Source: a virus
Length of the DNA: 37,138 nt
IMG/VR virus record: IMGVR_UViG_3300025117_000157
Location: 1-37,138 of that record
Reading direction: 5' to 3' (one strand)
Part shown: in pieces, positions 517 through 33,065 of the stretch
Position numbering within the stretch: position 1 is the first letter of the stretch
Layout of the letters: every line of letters starts with the position of its first letter
The notes under the pieces: generated by a model
The model's database searches: none
What the model was told of the DNA's origin: nothing
The model's input: the letters and a program-made list of their open reading frames with translations, nothing else
Made by a program: the position numbers and the translations under genes

Positions 517-561
517 AGTATATACCTTGTTCGTTTGTTCGTCAAGTAATTATGTGGATAA
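517..561 (-). promoter_or_regulatory. Minus-strand promoter with upstream DnaA-box-like site
   Basis: The -35 is TTGACG (540-545) and the -10 is TATACT (517-522), with a 17-bp spacer. TTATCCACA (553-561, read on minus) lies 7 bp upstream of the -35. Six nt after the -10 there is an ACG rather than ATG, so unlike its relatives this one appears to drive the long leader RNA and the pentapeptide gene. Confidence 0.75.
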
Positions 562-842: not shown

Positions 843-923
843 AATATAGCAAATTCTTCCCGTAAAGTCAATAAAAAGTTATTCACATTAGTTATTGACT
901 AAATAACTAAAAAGATTTAGTAT
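843..923. promoter_or_regulatory. Divergent promoter pair sharing one central DnaA-box-like site
   Basis: The central box is TTATTCACA (879-887). Plus promoter: TTGACT (895-900), 17 bp, TAGTAT (918-923), then 6 nt to the ATG at 930. Minus promoter: TTGACT (866-871), 17 bp, TATATT (843-848). The box is exactly 7 bp from each -35. This is where the plus arm and the leftward minus arm diverge. Confidence 0.75.
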
Positions 924-7073: not shown

Positions 7074-7093
7074 TTATCCACATTTGCTTGACT
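7074..7093 (+). promoter_or_regulatory. DnaA-box-like site with adjacent TTGACT, plus orientation
   Basis: TTATCCACA (7074-7082), 5 bp (TTTGC), TTGACT (7088-7093). The segment from TAGTTATCC through TTGACTTTT matches the promoter at 25436-25455, but no good -10 follows at 16-17 bp. It may be a degraded or very weak promoter for the 32-aa ORF at 7140. Confidence 0.45.
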
Positions 7094-21655: not shown

Positions 21656-22429
21656 TTAGAGTGAACCCCAGCTCTTTCCTTTGAAGTCTGCGCTGGTTTT
21701 CACATTTGAAACTTTCGTTTCAGCTGTCTTTTCAGAGGTTGTGGCGGCGGCGATCTTTTTCTTTTCCTCGGTAGAATCGTTTTTGACATTGGTTACACCG
21801 GCTTTCATTAGTTTGAAGGCCGCTTTGTAGTTCCAACGCCCTTTACTATCTACAAGATCGTTGTCCATCGTGAACTTGAGGAGCTTGTTGCGATCAACTT
21901 TTCCTTCGGGATTTAATTCCTTATCGGATTCAAGGGCTTTTACCTCATCATTGAAGTAACCAGTCGCCTCATCGATTGCCTTCTGCTGTTTTTCCGCCTT
22001 TTCCTCTAGCCGTTTGATAGCGTTATTCTCCGCTTGGGTAAGTCGAGCGTCTTCGTGGGCTTTGTATTGCGCCCATGCTTTTGCATCGCCTCCGAACCAT
22101 TCAGGGACATCGGCATCGGCTAGATCCTCCCGCTTCTTTTCGAACCTAGTCTCTATATCCTTGCGGATAGTGTCAATTTCTTGAACGTGTCGAATTTCTT
22201 GTTCGTTGAAGCGCTTAGTCCAATCATTCTCCCGTTCTTTCCAGCGAGGATGATCTGCTAAGTTTTCACTATCTTTTTTATTTTCCGTCTGATTTTTATC
22301 CTGTTCAGACGATTCATCAGTCGAGTTAGTGTCGGTTGTTTCCGTTGACGACTCGGTGGAGTTGTCCTTCTCCTTGGAATTGTCTAGATTTTCATCTGAC
22401 TTTTCCTGCGTCTGTGTATTTTCTGTCAT
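21656..22429 (-). CDS. Scaffolding protein, 257 aa
   Basis: A very acidic, Ser/Thr/Asn/Glu-rich, probably disordered N-terminus (residues 1-60) precedes long charged helices (ETRFEKKREDLADAD, AIKRLEEKAEKQQKAIDEAT). A basic C-terminal tail (NVKTSADFKGKSWGSL) is suited to binding coat protein. This composition and its place between portal and capsid genes are classical for phage scaffolds. The upstream sequence is AT-rich without a Shine-Dalgarno, and a DnaA-box-like site lies 31 nt upstream. Confidence 0.8.
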   Translation of the reverse strand: MTENTQTQEKSDENLDNSKEKDNSTESSTETTDTNSTDESSEQDKNQTENKKDSENLADHPRWKERENDWTKRFNEQEIRHVQEIDTIRKDIETRFEKKREDLADADVPEWFGGDAKAWAQYKAHEDARLTQAENNAIKRLEEKAEKQQKAIDEATGYFNDEVKALESDKELNPEGKVDRNKLLKFTMDNDLVDSKGRWNYKAAFKLMKAGVTNVKNDSTEEKKKIAAATTSEKTAETKVSNVKTSADFKGKSWGSL

Positions 22430-22459: not shown

Positions 22460-22468
22460 TGTGGATAA
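22460..22468 (-). promoter_or_regulatory. DnaA-box-like site upstream of the scaffold gene
   Basis: TTATCCACA on minus, directly abutting the TAG of the 45-aa gene and 30 nt from the scaffold ATG. There is no good -35 at the usual distance; a TATAAT overlaps the start region. A regulatory role is uncertain. Confidence 0.55.
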
Positions 22469-22610: not shown

Positions 22611-24566
22611 TTACCCACCCTTTACGGGAACTTCTCTTAACATCGACCTTTTGTTTTCGCTTCGGATTATTTCTTTTTCAATATCTATGGCGCCCTTGCG
22701 TTCCGTAGCCAGTCGGTCTGCATCTTTTTTAGCTTGGTCTTCTTCTTGTATTCCTTGCTGTTCTGCTTGCGCCGCTTGTTGTTGCATAGCGATAACTTCT
22801 TGCACTAATGGGTTGTCTTTGAATAGTAGTTGAGGGGCCTTTGCTTCTAACCAAACATTAGCGGCCACTTCTTTGGCGTTCGGCCATTCCAGACGCTCAT
22901 AGAGGTCTATGTTGGATATGCGATTCAGTGAGGCAAGCTCTAACGCTTGGTTGGCGATTGAAGTGCTGTCTTTTGGCAATAGGGAACCTTCTTTAACAGA
23001 AACAATAACTTTGGGCGGTATTGCGCCTTCAATGAATTGAAAGTCTTTGTCATAGACATAGAGCAGTTGCAGATACCAGTTATACCAATCGTCAGCCCAT
23101 TGCTCTAGGTATTCGGTAACACCGCCACCGATGCGGTCAGTGTCAAGACCTCGGCTCATTATCTTGCCCCGGACTGTTTCCTCGCCTTTTAGCCCAGCTT
23201 GAGATGAACCGCTTACGCCAAAAATATCTCTCATTCGCATTCTAATGTCATTTCGGTCGTTAAATACATCGGCTGGAAGTCCGACAGGGTTGTATTGGTC
23301 AATCGCTTCGCGCGGGGCGCCGTCGGGAATACAGACAACACCGCCTTTGCGTAGCGCTCGGGTAACACCAGTCGCTTGCTCTTTTGTAAGTCCCGCTCGG
23401 GCGAGAGAGACGACAAGACCGCCATTCATTCTGTCGGCGTTTTTGTCTATTTGTTTATCTCTTTTATTTATCCTGTCTTGATTGGCGAGGTTTTGACCGA
23501 TGAGAGATGTTTTATCCATTGGTTGGTCGCCTAGATTAAAGACTGACAGGAACGAGTATGGCATTTTTGGCACATTGAAATGGTTGATGCCTTTTGTTTC
23601 AACTGGTTCAGCCGTTGCATTGCCATAGTCGTCAACTGAAACGCCTTCGGAAGCAAGGTCGGTTACTTCGGGTATCTCTGTCTTGTCATAGTTCCAATGC
23701 GGATTTTTCTTTTTGAGAAGTATTGTTGATTCAAATTTCCAACACATGTATGTCGGAGTCCACCATTCCACAAATTGGATTTCAGTCGCTAGGTCGTCTT
23801 TTACTTTTTCTTTCAGTTTGGTAATTGCTTCGCCATTGCCTTTTTTTACAATCTTGCCTGTCTCAGGGTCTAGTTCGTCTTCTTGCTGTCCGATGGTGTT
23901 TAAGATTTTACTTGCTTCAAGTTTTCGGTATTCGCCTATTCGATTGCCGGTGTAGCCATCCTCGTCAATGGTTGCGCTAGGGTCAAGAATCATTTTCTTT
24001 GGGCGAACGATGCGATTGGTTGGTATGTCGTTATCCAAGTCCCAGCCGAACTTTGAAACACCGAGCTGATAAATAGCCCAGTGTCGCGCGCCTTTCTTTA
24101 GTTTCAAGCGTATTTTATTTTTGTCCGCTAGGTCGGCAAGACGATTCTTTACTTTCTCAACGAATTTTTCTTTTACAGGGTCGGATATTTCTGTGGCGTC
24201 TAGTGTGATAAGAGGGTCAGGGTTGCGTCTGGTTGCTTGGGGTAGAAATGTCTCAAGGGATTCAAAGACGAGGTTGTCCACCATCGCTCTTTGTTTATCA
24301 ACTCTCGGGCCTTCAAATTGTTTTCCGAGCCAGTATTTTTCGTTTTCTTCTATTTGTCTTTCCCATTCTGATTTTACCGGCGAATCTTTCCAGTCTTTTT
24401 CCCACTTGTCCGCCAATTTGACTATGTCCTCATCGGACATATTGAGCGTTAGCTCCGGGAGTTTTTCAGAGACGATGCCTTCTTTATTTTCAGAATCTAA
24501 AGACTTGGAGATTTTATTTATTCCATCTCCAAGAGAACTATAACCTGCTGTGTTTGGGTCATACAT
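22611..24566 (-). CDS. Portal protein, 651 aa
   Basis: The length suits podovirus portals. The N-terminal half has EENEKYWLGKQFEGPR, NLVFESLETFLPQATRRNP and a DPSATIDEDG beta-turn. The middle has PYSFLSVFNLGDQPMDKTSLIGQNLANQDRINKR, the long helical portal core. GVSGSSQAG and ETVRGKIMSRGLDTDR follow, then a C-terminal Gln/Glu-rich helix (about 595-645). It forms the dodecameric DNA channel that docks the terminase. The ATG at 24566 is preferred because a -10 TATACT ends 7 nt upstream, again suggesting a leaderless or near-leaderless late mRNA. Confidence 0.9.
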   Translation of the reverse strand: MYDPNTAGYSSLGDGINKISKSLDSENKEGIVSEKLPELTLNMSDEDIVKLADKWEKDWKDSPVKSEWERQIEENEKYWLGKQFEGPRVDKQRAMVDNLVFESLETFLPQATRRNPDPLITLDATEISDPVKEKFVEKVKNRLADLADKNKIRLKLKKGARHWAIYQLGVSKFGWDLDNDIPTNRIVRPKKMILDPSATIDEDGYTGNRIGEYRKLEASKILNTIGQQEDELDPETGKIVKKGNGEAITKLKEKVKDDLATEIQFVEWWTPTYMCWKFESTILLKKKNPHWNYDKTEIPEVTDLASEGVSVDDYGNATAEPVETKGINHFNVPKMPYSFLSVFNLGDQPMDKTSLIGQNLANQDRINKRDKQIDKNADRMNGGLVVSLARAGLTKEQATGVTRALRKGGVVCIPDGAPREAIDQYNPVGLPADVFNDRNDIRMRMRDIFGVSGSSQAGLKGEETVRGKIMSRGLDTDRIGGGVTEYLEQWADDWYNWYLQLLYVYDKDFQFIEGAIPPKVIVSVKEGSLLPKDSTSIANQALELASLNRISNIDLYERLEWPNAKEVAANVWLEAKAPQLLFKDNPLVQEVIAMQQQAAQAEQQGIQEEDQAKKDADRLATERKGAIDIEKEIIRSENKRSMLREVPVKGG

Positions 24567-24573
24567 TATTATC

Positions 24574-24615
24574 AGTATAATCTTTTTTCAGTTTGTCAAC
24601 AAGAGATGTGGATAA
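24574..24615 (-). promoter_or_regulatory. Late promoter with DnaA-box-like site ahead of the portal gene
   Basis: Box TTATCCACA (24607-24615, minus). Possible -35 is TTGTTG (24597-24602) with 17 bp to TATACT (24574-24579). The overlapping TTGACA (24594-24599) is a better hexamer but only 14 bp from that -10. The ATG is 7 nt downstream. It is probably the main start of the late operon. Confidence 0.6.
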
Positions 24616-25313: not shown

Positions 25314-25407
25314 TCTGGTTCTGGTTAAAAGAACAGTTATACACTAACATATCTGCGGAAATTCCGCAAGGTAGAAAACATACAATTGTTCTTTTTCTTT
25401 TAACCAT
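25294..25407 (-). CDS. Possible 37-aa leaderless ORF (or small RNA)
   Basis: The ATG at 25407 lies exactly 6 nt after a -10 (TATGAT). It encodes MVKRKRTIVCFLPCGISADM and ends in the terminator loop. The transcript contains TGCGGA/TCCGCA and a long-range GGTTAAAAG/CTTTTAACC pairing, so it may act as RNA rather than protein. A complete unit is visible (box, promoter, start, terminator), but no protein family is recognised. Confidence 0.4.
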   Translation of the reverse strand: MVKRKRTIVCFLPCGISADMLVYNCSFNQNQKSPTFY

Positions 25408-25413
25408 ATCCAC

Positions 25414-25455
25414 ATCATATTCTCTATAAAATAAAAGTCAAGCAAATGTGGATAA
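25414..25455 (-). promoter_or_regulatory. DnaA-box promoter of the 37-aa unit
   Basis: Box TTATCCACA (about 25447-25455), 5 bp TTTGC, TTGACT (25436-25441), 16-bp spacer, TATGAT (25414-25419), 6 nt, ATG. The box abuts the TAG of the HTH gene. Coordinates may be off by one base. Confidence 0.75.
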
Positions 25456-25797
25456 CTAATCTATTGGCGAGCGGGCAATATCACTTCTTTTTTTCCAATT
25501 CCTTGCTTTTTCTTCGGCGACATAATCTTTGTAACTCTTGCTGGGATTTATGACCTCGCCATCATCATCTGGGTTTGAAATTCTCTCTGCCCTATCCCCA
25601 ACTTCTATGTGAAGTATTTTTGGTCTTTTCTTTTGTGTTCTAATTTGGGTAATTCCAGCTTTTTGGCAATGATATAATATCGTGGTATGGTCTTTCCCGA
25701 AGAATTTTCCGATTTCAATAGAAGAATACCCTTGTCGCCTCATTTCTATGGCTTCTTTAATACTTTCTTTATTCATCCTGTGTTGTCCTAGTTTCAT
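25456..25797 (-). CDS. HTH protein with DnaA-domain-IV-like signature, 113 aa
   Basis: Residues about 12-48 form a helix-turn-helix: SIKEAIEMRRQGYSSIEIG, then KFFGKDHTTILYHCQKAG. The string FGKDHTT matches the FGxRDHTT signature with which DnaA domain IV reads TTATNCACA, although the basic loop and AAA+ domain of DnaA are absent. The C-terminal half is charged with no recognised fold. TTATCCACA boxes occur throughout this genome, one touching this gene's stop codon. I infer a phage regulator of those boxes. Its position after the large terminase and overlap of 4 nt show co-expression with it. The alternative is a generic phage HTH protein. Confidence 0.7.
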   Translation of the reverse strand: MKLGQHRMNKESIKEAIEMRRQGYSSIEIGKFFGKDHTTILYHCQKAGITQIRTQKKRPKILHIEVGDRAERISNPDDDGEVINPSKSYKDYVAEEKARNWKKRSDIARSPID

Positions 25798-27443
25798 AAT
25801 CGCCAGTCATCGTTATCTTCAGCTTCCATTTCATCAAATTGCTTGTCAAACATTTTCTTGGGGTTGAAGTCCACCGTCTGGTCGGGGTTTATCTCGTAGC
25901 TGTTGGACTTTCTTTCGTCTGTCGGCTCTACAATCATTCCCATACCCGCGAAACGGCTCATACCAGCCCTCCAAGCGACCGATGCGAGAACCAAATGGTC
26001 GCGACCGCTTCTGACCCACTTATAGCCCTTTACTTGGTTAGTGTCGGGGTCTAGCACTTTCATTTTTGATAAATTGTTCCAATCAAGCCAATAGGAATAC
26101 CAGTCTTCTTCAGTTCCGTGAACAGGTATTCGTTTGTTTCTAAATTCATCCACCACCAATTGTATGCCTCTGTTGCGTTCCACTTTGACTGTTCTATGGT
26201 CATCGCCTTTTCCGAATGTGAAGATTTCCTCTTGATTGCGGTCGCCTACGAAGTAAACAAGAAACACACGACCAACCCAGCGTTCAGCGAATGCCCGGGA
26301 GCCGATGAGATCGCCACCGGCGTCTATAAATGCAATACACTTTTTCCAACGTTCCATTATGTCATCAAGAGCTTTGTAATCGGTGCAATCGCCTTGAAAG
26401 AACAAGCCCTGTCTATTTCCCAGCACATAATCCAAGCGAAGTCCGGTGTCTATGCCCATTACGATACGCTCGTCAGTGTCAGGCGCCCATATCTTGCCCG
26501 TTAGGTTTTGGAAGAAGCTGTTGCGAAGCAGTTTTGAGGAGCCGTCAGCATATGGCAGTCCGAGTATTTTGGTATAAAAGAATTCAGGCGTGGTATCTTT
26601 GTTTTGGTATTTATCAACTATGTATTCGGCGGAAATCCATGGGGCAATGAGTAGTGGCACCCAGTATCCCGATATGGGTCTGTCGGGATATTTCGCCACC
26701 CATTGACCCTCTCGTCTTACATAATTTGGCAACTCTTTTCGGCACTTTTTGCATATAAATATTTTCTTTTCAAGGTCTATGGACATCTTCTTCGGTTCTT
26801 CCGTGTTCCATGAGAGGTATTGCCAATGGTTGCAGTGAGGACATTTGACAAACCAATGTTTTTGGTCTGACGCAAGCCACCAATTATGTACACCGGTTTC
26901 AGGAAGCGAGGGATGAGAGAAGACATGAGTTTGTTTCAACTTGGAGTGTTGCAAACGGGCTTGATAGTCAGCGATAATGTCCAACCTGCTTGCATCCAAC
27001 TCATCATGAATTAACCTATCCGCAGGAGTCATCATCGCGCTTTTTTTTGTCCAACTTCCACGATAATATATCATCGCATCGCCAACCTGCTTTGATTCTA
27101 CCGAGTCCTTATCTTTCACATCTTTGAGCATGCAAGGATTATTTGCAATGATACGATTAGTCTTTCCGCCAACCATTACTCTAACATCGCTATCTGTCGG
27201 AAGAGTGTAGACTTGGTCTATATTATATTTCTTGGCATCAAAATGACTCTTCAACATTTCGCAGGTTGTCATTCCAATCTGCGCCGCTTTCATCACGACA
27301 AGGTTCTGCGCTTGGTCGCCGTATATGTCAAAGAGAAAAGGGTGATTGTCAAATTCAATCGGCTCGCCTTTTTCGTTCTTTATCTTTTCGGTGATGAGCC
27401 AATCGTGTATGTCCAAAAAATTTTCTTCAGAATTTGCCAGCAT
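25794..27443 (-). CDS. terL: Terminase large subunit (GpA-type), 549 aa
   Basis: Packaging motor with an N-terminal ATPase and a C-terminal nuclease. Walker A-like MKAAQIGMTT (51-60) has the GpA-family form; Walker B is LIHDEL (144-149). The zinc-finger insertion typical of GpA has CPHC (201-204) and CKKC (231-234). Nuclease acids are D332 (GIDTG), D374 (AFIDAGGD) and probably D482 (RDHLVLA). Full length for the family. It cleaves concatemers and docks to the portal encoded downstream. GpA-type enzymes often make cohesive ends, but here the map suggests circular permutation, so the end type is open. Confidence 0.92.
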   Translation of the reverse strand: MLANSEENFLDIHDWLITEKIKNEKGEPIEFDNHPFLFDIYGDQAQNLVVMKAAQIGMTTCEMLKSHFDAKKYNIDQVYTLPTDSDVRVMVGGKTNRIIANNPCMLKDVKDKDSVESKQVGDAMIYYRGSWTKKSAMMTPADRLIHDELDASRLDIIADYQARLQHSKLKQTHVFSHPSLPETGVHNWWLASDQKHWFVKCPHCNHWQYLSWNTEEPKKMSIDLEKKIFICKKCRKELPNYVRREGQWVAKYPDRPISGYWVPLLIAPWISAEYIVDKYQNKDTTPEFFYTKILGLPYADGSSKLLRNSFFQNLTGKIWAPDTDERIVMGIDTGLRLDYVLGNRQGLFFQGDCTDYKALDDIMERWKKCIAFIDAGGDLIGSRAFAERWVGRVFLVYFVGDRNQEEIFTFGKGDDHRTVKVERNRGIQLVVDEFRNKRIPVHGTEEDWYSYWLDWNNLSKMKVLDPDTNQVKGYKWVRSGRDHLVLASVAWRAGMSRFAGMGMIVEPTDERKSNSYEINPDQTVDFNPKKMFDKQFDEMEAEDNDDWRL

Positions 27444-27444
27444 T

Positions 27445-28461
27445 TTATTTGGTGTATTTAAGTATGTGTGCTATAACTTCCACATTAAACGCATTTCCAA
27501 GAACTTTATATCTCTGCGTATTGCTGACCCCTTCCGTATAATTATCGGGCAAGGACTGCAATCGCTCGCACTCCACTGGCGTTAATTTCCTGATAATTTC
27601 ATTCTCTGAAAGTTTGTTGTTGTATTCCCAAGAAGAAGAAAGTGTAGGCACTTTCCCATTCAACGCTCTTTTGCCATCAGCGTTCTTTCCTCGAGGGGTT
27701 TGGACAATGTAAAGCCCTGTTTTAGGCCCCCTACCGCCACCGAGAGCGGAAAGTCCGACGGACTTTCCTTCAGGCGAGTATATCCTGTCTCCCTGACCGC
27801 CCTTGTTTATACTTCCGATACGGATTGTGTCCCAATTATGCTTATTGTATATTCCACTTCCTCTGCCAGAAGAACGAACAGTATTTGATTTCGGTCTGAT
27901 TGTAAAAGTATCGTCCACGCTCGGCTCTAAAATATCTTTCAAGAAGATACCTCTATCGTCTGGCAATTTCACATTCGGGATATTCGTCCAAAACAAGCGT
28001 TTTCTATTTTGAGCAGACACCAATGCGGCGTTTATCATTATTGGCTCTACTCCAAGCTCTTTAGTGATAATGTCCTTCGCTTCTTTAGGCATTGAGGCGA
28101 CATTCTCAAGAATAAACCACTTCGGTTTCACTTCTTTGAGAATACGGACATACTCCCAAAACAAACCACTTCGTTCGCCGTCTAATCCTTTCCTATTTTT
28201 TTGAGCAATGGAAAGGTCTTGGCAGGGACTTCCACCAATTAAAAGGTCAATTCTCGGACGACTTACTCCGTGGAAAGTTAGTCCATTTACTTCTTTCACA
28301 TCCCCAAGCTGTATCGTATCGGGATAGTTCTTTTGGGCAATCTGGATAGCATACTTGTCCACTTCACTGGCATAGTAAAGTTCAACAGGAATACCCGCCC
28401 TTTCTAGGGCTACTCTGGCACAAGAAATTCCATCAAAAATACTTAAAATTTTCATATTCAT
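27445..28461 (-). CDS. dcm: DNA (cytosine-5) methyltransferase, 338 aa
   Basis: All main C5-MTase motifs are present: I (IFDGISC, 8-14), IV with catalytic Cys80 in GGSPCQDLS (77-84), VI FILENV (116-121), VIII QNRKRLF (151-157) and IX/X at the C-terminus (LTPVECERLQSLP and YKVLGNAFNVEV). The target-recognition region between about 160 and 270 is short. No restriction endonuclease is beside it, so it is an orphan enzyme that probably protects phage DNA. It lies between the terminase genes, overlapping none and spaced 1 nt from both. Confidence 0.93.
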   Translation of the reverse strand: MNMKILSIFDGISCARVALERAGIPVELYYASEVDKYAIQIAQKNYPDTIQLGDVKEVNGLTFHGVSRPRIDLLIGGSPCQDLSIAQKNRKGLDGERSGLFWEYVRILKEVKPKWFILENVASMPKEAKDIITKELGVEPIMINAALVSAQNRKRLFWTNIPNVKLPDDRGIFLKDILEPSVDDTFTIRPKSNTVRSSGRGSGIYNKHNWDTIRIGSINKGGQGDRIYSPEGKSVGLSALGGGRGPKTGLYIVQTPRGKNADGKRALNGKVPTLSSSWEYNNKLSENEIIRKLTPVECERLQSLPDNYTEGVSNTQRYKVLGNAFNVEVIAHILKYTK

Positions 28462-29312: not shown

Positions 29313-29712
29313 TTGCTTTATCTTTTATCATTTTATAAGCCGCGTTTGACCCTATTATACTACCATATGTCGGACTTGACAATATCGTTGCCATATTGCG
29401 AAGCACTTTGTCTCTGCGGTTTCTGTCTTTTTGGATTTGGCATATAAATTTGTATTGGTTGGCGTAGGCTTCCACTTCTTGCTGAATGCGGAATAGTCCG
29501 TCATTTAGGTATCTGTCCCACCAGCCATCAGGGTCGTTGCCTTGCTGTATGCAGTGCGTTTCCTCGTGAATCATCAGGTCGGGTGTGATACTTCCACCAC
29601 TTCGGTTGTAAATTGTGTCCCCGTAGGTGTATATGGCATTGTCAGTCGGTTGCATGCCAGCTTGTAGGATTTTGTCGTATATTGGCGGGCATTCGTTTGC
29701 TATAATTTTCAT
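29305..29712 (-). CDS. Putative zinc metallopeptidase-like protein, 135 aa
   Basis: HEETH (49-53) is an HExxH zinc motif, with a downstream glutamate in QQEVEAYANQY (about 77-87) as possible third ligand, a gluzincin/peptidase arrangement. The surroundings (TYGDTIYNRSGGSITPDLMIHEETHCIQQG) are conserved-looking in uncultured phages. It lacks a signal peptide and a propeptide, so it would act in the cytoplasm, perhaps in maturation or host takeover. Enzymatic activity is unproven. It overlaps the GroEL gene end by 4 nt. Confidence 0.65.
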   Translation of the reverse strand: MKIIANECPPIYDKILQAGMQPTDNAIYTYGDTIYNRSGGSITPDLMIHEETHCIQQGNDPDGWWDRYLNDGLFRIQQEVEAYANQYKFICQIQKDRNRRDKVLRNMATILSSPTYGSIIGSNAAYKMIKDKANE

Positions 29713-31256
29713 TTTTCTTTCTCGTTATATTCCACCAGTATTCCCGACGAAGTTAAGAGTATCGATGCAATTGAGACCGCACTCTCAACACCGGCAATAA
29801 GCACATCAACAGGGTCAACCACTCCGACTTCCATAAACTTGCCTATCTTATCGGTTACCACATTCAGGGCTTCGCCATCTTTCAGGTCAGGTTCTTCAAT
29901 TCCCATATTTTCAAGCAACTGGCGGTTTGGATATTTAAGGGCTTCGTTGAGAATTGCACTTGTCGTTTTAATGTTGGCGAGAGCAAGACCGGAGCCGGGG
30001 ACTACTCCGTGTTTATACGCGGACTTCACGGCATTGACAGCATCTTCCACCTTATATTTGAGAGTTTTCTGTTCGTTTTCGGTGGCGGCGCCTACTTTGA
30101 TTACCGCAAGAGTATTGGTGAAAAATCCGAGACGGCGCTGATGTTCTTTCTTTTTGGCTTCAACTTTTTCGTTTTCAATCGCTTGGCGGAGTGAAGTTAT
30201 TGCCATCGCCCGGTCGCCCTTTTTTCCTTTGGGGTCTATGACGATGGATTCTTTTTCCCTGCAGATAAACTTCTCGCATCTGCCAAGGTCTTTAATTTCT
30301 GCGTTTTCCAACTTGTCGCCTTTTGCTTGGGTGAATACTTTAGCGCCAGTTAAGAGCGCGAGGTCTTCAAGGATAACTGTTCTATTGTCTCCCGACGGTG
30401 CTACGATGGCCACGCCCCGGAAACTGCCATTTTTGCCGGTTTCTGCGTTGCGAACATGAGAAAGATTTACCATAAATGTTGCCAGCGCGCTTTGCTCAAC
30501 ATTGTCGGCAATGACTACGATGCTTCTTTTGTTTTCTTTCGCTAGTTTATCGATAATTGGGAATATATCGGCTATTTCCGTCAGCCGGTAGTCGGTGATG
30601 AGGATGTACGGTTTCTCCACGACTGTTTGCATACGACTCGGGTCGGTTACCATATAGGGGCTGATGTAGCCGTTGTCCAATTTAATGCCTTCAGTCGTTT
30701 CAACTGTGGTTTCCATAGTGGGAGATTTGTCTATGGTGATGATGCCGTCTCTGCCAAGTTTGTGATAAGTGTCGGCAAGCAGTTCGGCAATCTTTTCATT
30801 ATCAAAAGCAACTAGAGCCACCTTTTTCAAGTCTTCCTTTGTTTTAATTTCTTTAGCGGATTTTGTAAGGGCTTTTTTGACTTCCTCAAGACCTTTCTTT
30901 AGTTCTTTTTCTATTTTGTGTCCGTCAAATTGACTTTTCTTGGCGACTTCGTTGATGATGGCTTGGAGTATGATAAGAGCGCCAGTGGTGCCGTCTCCAG
31001 CCCTGTCATTAGTTTTTATCGCCGTTTCGCGGATAAGGTTAACAATAGCGTTCTCCGCAGGGTTGTCAGTGATTTGAAAGTCCCTTGCGATTTGAACACC
31101 ATCATCAAGTCCTCCGAGTTTATATGCAAATTTGTCTATAATTACCTTATTACTCGCGGGCCCGAAAGTGAGACGAACCATATTACACAATTTGTTGGTG
31201 GCTGATTTGATTACTTCAAAGACTTCTTTTTCATTTATGATTTTTATTTCTGACAT
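29709..31256 (-). CDS. groEL: Phage chaperonin GroEL (Hsp60), 515 aa
   Basis: A group I chaperonin over nearly full length (E. coli about 548). The ATP site GDGTT (87-91) contains the catalytic-type Asp88. The equatorial DAVNAVKSAYKHGVVPGSGLA (about 393-413) keeps the second key Asp. VGAATENE and the apical-domain segments are present. The usual TLGPKGRNV is replaced by TFGPASNKV (30-38), and the Gly-Met-rich C-terminal tail is missing. It should form a folding ring for phage proteins, working with the GroES-like protein 500 bp upstream. Two small Cys/Lys-rich genes separate them. Confidence 0.95.
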   Translation of the reverse strand: MSEIKIINEKEVFEVIKSATNKLCNMVRLTFGPASNKVIIDKFAYKLGGLDDGVQIARDFQITDNPAENAIVNLIRETAIKTNDRAGDGTTGALIILQAIINEVAKKSQFDGHKIEKELKKGLEEVKKALTKSAKEIKTKEDLKKVALVAFDNEKIAELLADTYHKLGRDGIITIDKSPTMETTVETTEGIKLDNGYISPYMVTDPSRMQTVVEKPYILITDYRLTEIADIFPIIDKLAKENKRSIVVIADNVEQSALATFMVNLSHVRNAETGKNGSFRGVAIVAPSGDNRTVILEDLALLTGAKVFTQAKGDKLENAEIKDLGRCEKFICREKESIVIDPKGKKGDRAMAITSLRQAIENEKVEAKKKEHQRRLGFFTNTLAVIKVGAATENEQKTLKYKVEDAVNAVKSAYKHGVVPGSGLALANIKTTSAILNEALKYPNRQLLENMGIEEPDLKDGEALNVVTDKIGKFMEVGVVDPVDVLIAGVESAVSIASILLTSSGILVEYNEKEK

Positions 31257-31765: not shown

Positions 31766-32047
31766 TTAATCTTTTAATGTTGCGATTACTTCATCGTTAT
31801 GAAGCAACATATATTCGACCTTTTCTAACTCGATTTTGTCTCCCGCCAATAGCGCGAAAACGACTTTATCTCCTTTTTTGATGTCGTCTATTTCACTGCC
31901 GACTGCTATCACTTCCCCGTATGCTTTCGGTTCTTCCTCGGTGTTGTCGGGTTTGAATACTCCGTGTTCGCTCACTTGGGTTTTCTTATCGTCTGGTTTT
32001 ACGAGTATATAGAGTTTTCTCGGAATTATTTTAGGTGTTTTTTTCAT
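31766..32047 (-). CDS. groES: GroES-like co-chaperonin, 93 aa
   Basis: The length is near the family norm (about 97). The ATG at 32047 (MKKTPKIIPRKLYIL) lies just after the upstream stop. The core GEVIAVGSEIDDIKKGDKVVFALLAGDKIELEKVEYMLLHNDEVIAT (44-90) matches the GroES beta-barrel and C-terminus. The mobile loop (about 19-36) reads EHGVFKPD where bacterial GroES has GGIVLTG, so the GroEL-contact tripeptide has changed. It probably caps the phage GroEL ring, as T4 gp31 does for host GroEL. Confidence 0.88.
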   Translation of the reverse strand: MKKTPKIIPRKLYILVKPDDKKTQVSEHGVFKPDNTEEEPKAYGEVIAVGSEIDDIKKGDKVVFALLAGDKIELEKVEYMLLHNDEVIATLKD

Positions 32048-32048
32048 A

Positions 32049-32288
32049 TTACTGCAATTCACTTATACGAGTATCTCGACCCTTTCGTCTATTTTCCGCA
32101 ATAATTTGATTTCGGGCTTCGTCTGCTTCCTCTTCGGCTTCTATAATAAATCCTTTGGGTTTCGGGCCTTTGGCTTCAATCTGCTTGCTTGTAATTTCCA
32201 CTTTGTGTTCTATCACTCTGCGGAAGTAAGTCAGGGTTGCTACTATGAGGATTGCAATGAGCAGTCCGAGTATAATTCCTATAATCAT
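32049..32288 (-). CDS. Single-pass membrane protein with helical tail, 79 aa
   Basis: One N-terminal membrane span (MIIGIILGLLIAILIVATLTYF) with a basic stop (RR), then a charged helix (ITSKQIEAKGPKPKGFIIEAEEEADEARNQ) ending ISELQ. An early membrane-anchored factor is plausible, such as one for host takeover or superinfection exclusion. It could also be an extra lysis protein, though it is far from the lysis cassette. The stop precedes groES by one base. Confidence 0.65.
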   Translation of the reverse strand: MIIGIILGLLIAILIVATLTYFRRVIEHKVEITSKQIEAKGPKPKGFIIEAEEEADEARNQIIAENRRKGRDTRISELQ

Positions 32289-33019: not shown

Positions 33020-33065
33020 ATTATAATCCAAGCGGTTGGTATTTGCAATATCTATATGTGGATAA
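33020..33065 (-). promoter_or_regulatory. DnaA-box leaderless promoter of the LGRKGG gene
   Basis: Box TTATCCACA (33057-33065), 8 bp, TTGCAA (33043-33048), 17 bp, perfect TATAAT (33020-33025), 6 nt, ATG at 33013. It is embedded in the 3' end of the pentapeptide gene, where the box reads Leu-Ser-Thr. Confidence 0.75.

Follow-up and report, generated by a model that had tools for sequence, protein, structure and literature searches.

A promoter-coupled DnaA box common to phages and one Patescibacteria order, and a phage helix-turn-helix protein with a DnaA-like recognition helix

The terL-portal locus and its helix-turn-helix gene

The window examined here is the whole of a 37,138-nucleotide stretch of phage DNA from IMG/VR. 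In it, the gene of a 113-aa helix-turn-helix (HTH) protein lies between terL, whose 3' end it overlaps by 4 nt, and a portal-like gene (Table 1). A C5-cytosine methylase gene (27445-28461, minus strand) is found directly upstream of terL, between terL and a 203-aa ORF which, judged by position only, may be the small terminase subunit. The phage also encodes GroEL-like (Cpn60; 29709-31256, minus strand) and GroES-like (Cpn10; 31766-32062, minus strand) proteins, and the segment 3080-3342 consists of in-frame tandem repeats giving (INAWD)n pentapeptides, or (MSQAL)n on the other strand. When the phage DNA was compared with phage records by blastn, only the cytosine methylase gave matches, and the only phage tblastn matches of the HTH protein were ones overlapping terminase small subunit annotations.

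Table 1. Coordinates of the genes and boxes discussed, in window positions
Feature	Positions	Strand	Basis or context
Terminase large subunit (terL)	25794..27443	-	GpA_ATPase E 2.2e-19; phrog_675 E 2.6e-88
Portal-like gene	22611..24566	-	Position; weak PHROG matches to head-tail adaptor/portal
113-aa HTH protein gene	25456..25797	-	ORF, ATG start; profile matches; AlphaFold model
FGKDHTT, recognition-helix start, residues 33-39	25681..25701	-	Translation
TTATCCACA box abutting HTH stop codon	25447..25455	-	Promoter downstream TTGACT-16-TATGAT (25441-25414)
TTATCCACA box before portal gene	24607..24615	-	ATG 49 nt from box start
TTATCCACA box before scaffold-like gene (21656-22429)	22460..22468	-	ATG 39 nt from box start
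TTATCCACA box before small ORF MKSKPQKNP...	33057..33065	-	Promoter TTGCAA-17-TATAAT (33048-33020)
TTATCCACA box	553..561	-	Promoter TTGACG-17-TATACT (545-517)
TTATCCACA box before 32-aa membrane-like ORF	7074..7082	+	-35/-10 match weaker than elsewhere
TTATTCACA (AGTTATTCACAT) box before ORF starting at 930	879..887	+	Promoter TTGACT-17-TAGTAT (895-923)

The AlphaFold model of the protein shows a three-helix HTH (helices 10-21, 26-33 and 37-46, pLDDT ~90), followed by a disordered linker and by an isolated helix (89-108) at the C-terminal end. FGKDHTT does not vary across homologues of 50-64% identity, among which divergence affects the linker but not the recognition helix. An earlier note on this DNA had placed FGKDHTT inside an HTH, in a protein without the ATPase of DnaA whose gene ends against a box, and each of these statements holds: KDHTT occupies residues 35-39, at the start of the confidently predicted recognition helix (37-46); the Pfam profile search found no ATPase domain in the protein; and the stop codon shares bases with the AG of AGTTATCCACAT at 25446-25457 (minus strand). 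The box touching the stop codon is part of the promoter for the transcription unit that follows.

Extent of the likeness to DnaA

The top Pfam family of the HTH protein was Bac_DnaA_C (E 2.2e-5, 24.8 bits against a gathering threshold of 31.5), with HTH_38 a close second at 22.4 bits, also below its cut-off. The Bac_DnaA_C match spans profile positions 45-68 of 69 and protein residues 24-46; no whole-domain match above the gathering threshold was obtained, and the likeness to DnaA is confined to about 25 residues. The top sequence match in the PDB was the DNA-binding domain of E. coli DnaA (1j1v, E 0.027), with M. tuberculosis DnaA also among the matches, and hhalign paired the protein with DnaA domain IV at 94% probability over 27 columns, the target being eight domain IV sequences from one Patescibacteria order. 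Furthermore, a regular expression for the extended recognition helix, run over about 3 Mb of DNA, matched nothing but DnaA genes, the HTH protein with its homologues, a further DnaA-C protein that stands alone, and an open frame of 106 aa that lacks HTH context. Because the Pfam, PDB, hhalign and regular-expression results agree on it, the earlier observation of a DnaA-like helix is sound.

DnaA reads its box with the HTH together with a basic loop, the contact residues being taken in part from the 1J1V structure. The PRQ helix start of DnaA (R407/Q408), invariant in eight aligned DnaAs of the Patescibacteria order, is not conserved in the phage protein and its homologues, which read ES, KQ or SE there. 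The basic loop with R399, which makes a minor-groove contact, is absent: ahead of the first helix there are only some nine residues (MKLGQHRMN), with no SRKKE-like loop among them, whereas the DnaAs of the order show SRKKE...PRQ...RDHTT. In a Foldseek search of the PDB, M. tuberculosis DnaA (3pvp) came at rank 14 behind generic HTHs (35 residues, rmsd 2.1, 34% identity, E 0.98), and, with generic HTHs ranked first, structure comparison does not by itself discriminate. Since PRQ and the basic loop are missing, there is no room for the loop, and DnaA ranks only 14th by structure, we regard the protein as having a DnaA-like HTH, not DnaA domain IV. Thus the domain IV recognition signature that the earlier note proposed stands for the KDHTT helix and for DnaA as top sequence match, but it concerns the HTH part only and stays below the Pfam cut-off; likewise, the structure prediction and alignment that it called for gave an HTH, 27 aligned columns and a superposition on 3pvp of 35 residues. 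The assignments of R399, T435 and the other DnaA contacts come from papers cited in PMC9638019. A one-residue shorter turn (GKDHTT against GGRDHTT in E. coli) was considered as a separation from DnaA and rejected, M. tuberculosis DnaA (FGRDHTT) having the same turn length as the HTH protein.

In comparison with DnaA domain IV (Bac_DnaA_C, PF08299; 1J1V, 3PVP), the protein shares an [RK]DHTT HTH with 41% identity over 27 columns and differs by the lack of the PRQ helix start, the basic loop and the AAA+ domain and by its score below the family cut-off. It is a new member of a kind already known, the small phage HTH proteins whose recognition helix resembles that of DnaA. GafA, and a small DnaA-like protein whose gene precedes gafA in Hyphomicrobiales, take part in the regulation of gene transfer agents, and the DnaA-like HTH of GafA, without an equivalent of R399, can drive capsid genes (PMC9638019). 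The DnaA-like segment of GafA (about residues 15-55) is small and near the N terminus, as is segment 24-46 of the phage protein, and GafA-type systems are, like the HTH protein, linked to phage-type structural genes. The Pfam search found no DUF6456/sigma4-like region, the omega-binding part of GafA, in the HTH protein or in adjacent small ORFs, and TTATCCACA is nowhere to be found in the paper on GafA (PMC9638019). The idea of a stand-alone DnaA-like phage regulator is consequently reasonable biologically, but, given the GafA precedent, it is not new in kind, although the earlier note had thought it possibly undescribed. Other stand-alone phage 'DnaA C-terminal' proteins (BFVD A0A6J7X3X7; L375) have, as the HTH protein does, a DnaA-C-like domain without the ATPase; in L375 nearly all of the domain is matched, at a score above the Pfam cut-off, which is not so for the 113-aa protein.

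Boxes and promoters in the phage, its relatives and Patescibacteria

Exact AGTTATCCACAT occurs six times in the 37-kb window and in none of 200 shuffles, a seventh site being AGTTATTCACAT; TTATCCACA is likewise found six times, against a mean of 0.34 in shuffles. When one mismatch is allowed there are 43 boxes against 41.8 by chance, no excess, and therefore only the exact, promoter-coupled boxes are meaningful. All seven AGTTAT[CT]CACAT sites are oriented towards promoter-like sequence and lie just upstream of -35 regions, and at six of the seven a start codon follows 39-66 nt from the box start, box 553 (minus strand) having no clear start codon nearby. The distance from box to -35 is about 5-8 in the phage genome, shorter than the 8-11 of the chromosomes. 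At several of these promoters (24566, 22429 and the 33013 region) the ATG is no more than about 7 nt from the -10 hexamer or overlaps it, a closeness that suggests leaderless transcripts. A one-mismatch inverted box, ATATCCACA, at 25406-25414 (plus strand) on the -10 side of promoter 25441-25414, leaves that promoter flanked by two boxes; the inverted box was not seen in L008.

Relatives were taken from IMG/VR by TerL, and many of them are fragments. The HTH gene was present only in L007-L010 and L022, whose TerL is at least 91% identical. In others (L011, L013, L016, L017, L018, L023, L025 and L035) a promoter-coupled box lies downstream of terL and the gene after terL is unrelated, the replacement in relatives without the HTH gene being either an acidic protein of zinc-ribbon-like type or another small protein. 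The box in these relatives is mostly upstream of portal, and in L016 and L026 it is visibly just before it. The relatives without the gene (TerL ~64-73% identity) hold 13 distinct boxes against 1.45 expected; in more distant TerL relatives there are 7 against 4.45, near background. Since many of the contigs are fragments, it is only for the terL-portal locus that the gene can firmly be called absent. Among 50 box-bearing viral records, four had Bac_DnaA_C matches, of which two are homologues of this HTH gene, one is L375 (37.7 bits, a real stand-alone DnaA-C protein), and one is weak, with internal stops. The phages with the gene, all from one branch of the phage tree, carry three boxes in the late region, where relatives without it have one or two; this difference hints that the HTH protein may bind the same sites and leaves room for a role of the protein.

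The pattern GTTATCCACA-N3-12-TTGAC-N17-20-TATAAT was found in 86 stretches of IMG/VR, and with the box inverted in 75, compared with 2 for the reversed-box control. The spacing to TTGAC was 8-10 bp for 55 of 70 forward boxes and 4-6 bp for 30 of 53 inverted ones; such orientation-specific spacing would be expected if an oriented box-bound protein contacted RNA polymerase from a defined position. In GTDB genomes, among the matches listed, the pattern was mostly in Patescibacteria contigs, and several of the Bacillota contigs listed carry dnaA itself. Counts per genome compared GTTATCCACA-N4-9-TTGAC with the reversed pattern. In 287 Patescibacteria genomes there were 64 matches against 2 for the control, 26 of the 64 in the single genome G002; the order of G002, with 26 genomes, gave 58 against 1, and a Bacillota-type control phylum, with 101 genomes, gave 6 against 4. 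In G002, 25 of 40 boxes were followed by a promoter that agrees at 10 or more of 12 positions, the -35 mostly starting 9 bp after the box, and the reversed-sequence control, with few sites available, had no box-plus-promoter. The G002 and G323 stretches were partly picked for having matches, so the abundance of boxes in them, and to some degree the promoter share, is biased upward. Genes of several kinds, named by eye, follow the chromosomal boxes: a CDC48-like ATPase, quinolinate synthase, a LexA-like repressor and toxin-antitoxin genes. A promoter-coupled DnaA-box element is thus common to phages and one Patescibacteria order, and targeted literature searches found no description of such an element.

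The earlier note had further presented the protein and the boxes as a matched system and had asked whether box-bearing relatives always encode the protein. At the terL-portal locus they do not: relatives have the boxes and another gene after terL. With boxes in phages lacking the HTH gene and in Patescibacteria chromosomes, the HTH gene is not what explains the boxes, and the matched system is not supported. The boxes are the more interesting part of this genome, more so than the HTH protein.

The factor reading the boxes

DnaA-dependent promoters include nrdAB, ori-lambda and others (reviewed in PMC8203912), and at ori-lambda host DnaA activates transcription, possibly through contact with the beta subunit of RNA polymerase (PMC8203912). 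These promoters share with the present ones a DnaA box beside a sigma70 promoter and provide a precedent for a phage using host DnaA in transcription; what differs here is that many promoters, in phages and in a Patescibacteria order, have a stereotyped distance from box to -35. We infer that host DnaA is the box reader, that activation is the effect, and that the phage host is a patescibacterium. The reading we prefer, a little likelier to be right than wrong in our judgement, is that the boxes are upstream promoter elements read by a host factor, most probably DnaA as an activator, and that the HTH protein was acquired later. The oriented box would sit just upstream of the -35 of a sigma70-type promoter, where the host-encoded factor, most probably DnaA, would read it, touch RNA polymerase from a fixed position and activate. 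Phage promoters, the late portal and scaffold-like ones included, would in this way be tied into a promoter code that is also found in Patescibacteria chromosomes, and the boxes would exist with no need of the HTH protein. The latter would have joined one narrow phage branch afterwards, and its DnaA-like helix may bind the same boxes, or half of each, as a competitor or co-regulator; specific binding of TTATNCACA would be expected of a true domain IV.

A host protein other than DnaA but sharing its TTATCCACA specificity could in principle be the reader. DnaA was not detected in G002 (AH-259-L07) and G323 (probably AH-259-L05), the two box-richest single-cell genomes, although both have dnaN. 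Gene loss is, however, common to single-cell assemblies, and incompleteness is the simplest, if not a proven, reason for the undetected DnaA. Divergent forms of DnaA in the two genomes were considered and rejected, the weak PF00308 matches being other ATPases by eye. Furthermore, 23 of the 26 genomes of the order of G002 have a DnaA with complete domain IV (basic loop, PRQ, RDHTT), hence with all the contact residues, and the 9-mer is an exact high-affinity DnaA box, which together make a non-DnaA reader unlikely. Use of the boxes as replication or DnaA-titration sites, as their DnaA-box sequence might lead one to expect, is extremely improbable, since they occur singly, with an orientation and a fixed distance to the -35, and the reversed-box control is near zero. 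Searches with the HTH family in the box-rich order gave weak matches only, three of them to DnaA itself. Besides the two genomes in which DnaA was not detected, three results count against the preferred reading: the distance from box to -35, shorter in the phage than in the chromosomes; the larger number of late-region boxes in phages with the HTH gene; and the search for a host through TerL, in which relatives were found in only 5 of 380 Patescibacteria genomes, at just 35-37% identity.

As for the HTH protein, it might be an ordinary phage HTH (terminase-, transposase- or GcrA-like) with a convergent DHTT and nothing to do with the boxes. The near equality of the HTH_38 and Bac_DnaA_C scores, the many generic HTHs above DnaA in the Foldseek ranking and the terminase small subunit annotations under its sole phage tblastn matches all point that way, but the sequence and profile matches favour DnaA, and in the 3-Mb sample few proteins other than DnaA have the extended recognition helix, so that we find this reading rather doubtful. 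A stand-alone DnaA-like regulator of the boxes in this phage, activator or repressor of late genes, would fit the domain IV sequences as top relatives, the constant recognition helix beside a diverging linker, the box abutting the gene in lineages that bear it, the three boxes across late promoters and the precedent of GafA, a DnaA-like DNA-binding domain driving capsid genes (PMC9638019). Relatives and chromosomes nevertheless have boxes without the gene, and DnaA completes its reading of the box with the basic loop and PRQ, neither of which is conserved here; we consider this role improbable. A wider scheme strikes us as quite improbable: in a Patescibacteria lineage and its phages, dozens of promoters would have the DnaA box as their standard upstream element, a single branch of the phages would have acquired a small DnaA-mimic HTH reading the same element and taking over or switching late transcription, and the element may persist in some members without recognisable DnaA.

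If the boxes are indeed upstream elements read by host DnaA, they would offer a case, open to direct testing, in which DnaA serves widely as an activator. Patescibacteria promoters are little known; through the box-plus-promoter signature the transcription of phages and bacteria would be connected with the replication initiator, and the signature would serve as a sequence handle for matching uncultivated phages to their hosts. In virus record G453, a box-bearing phage, L375 (1462-1779) is a DnaA-C protein that stands alone, exceeds the Pfam cut-off and has a cluster of four TTATCCACA near it; for the idea of a stand-alone DnaA-like regulator it is a better case than the 113-aa protein.
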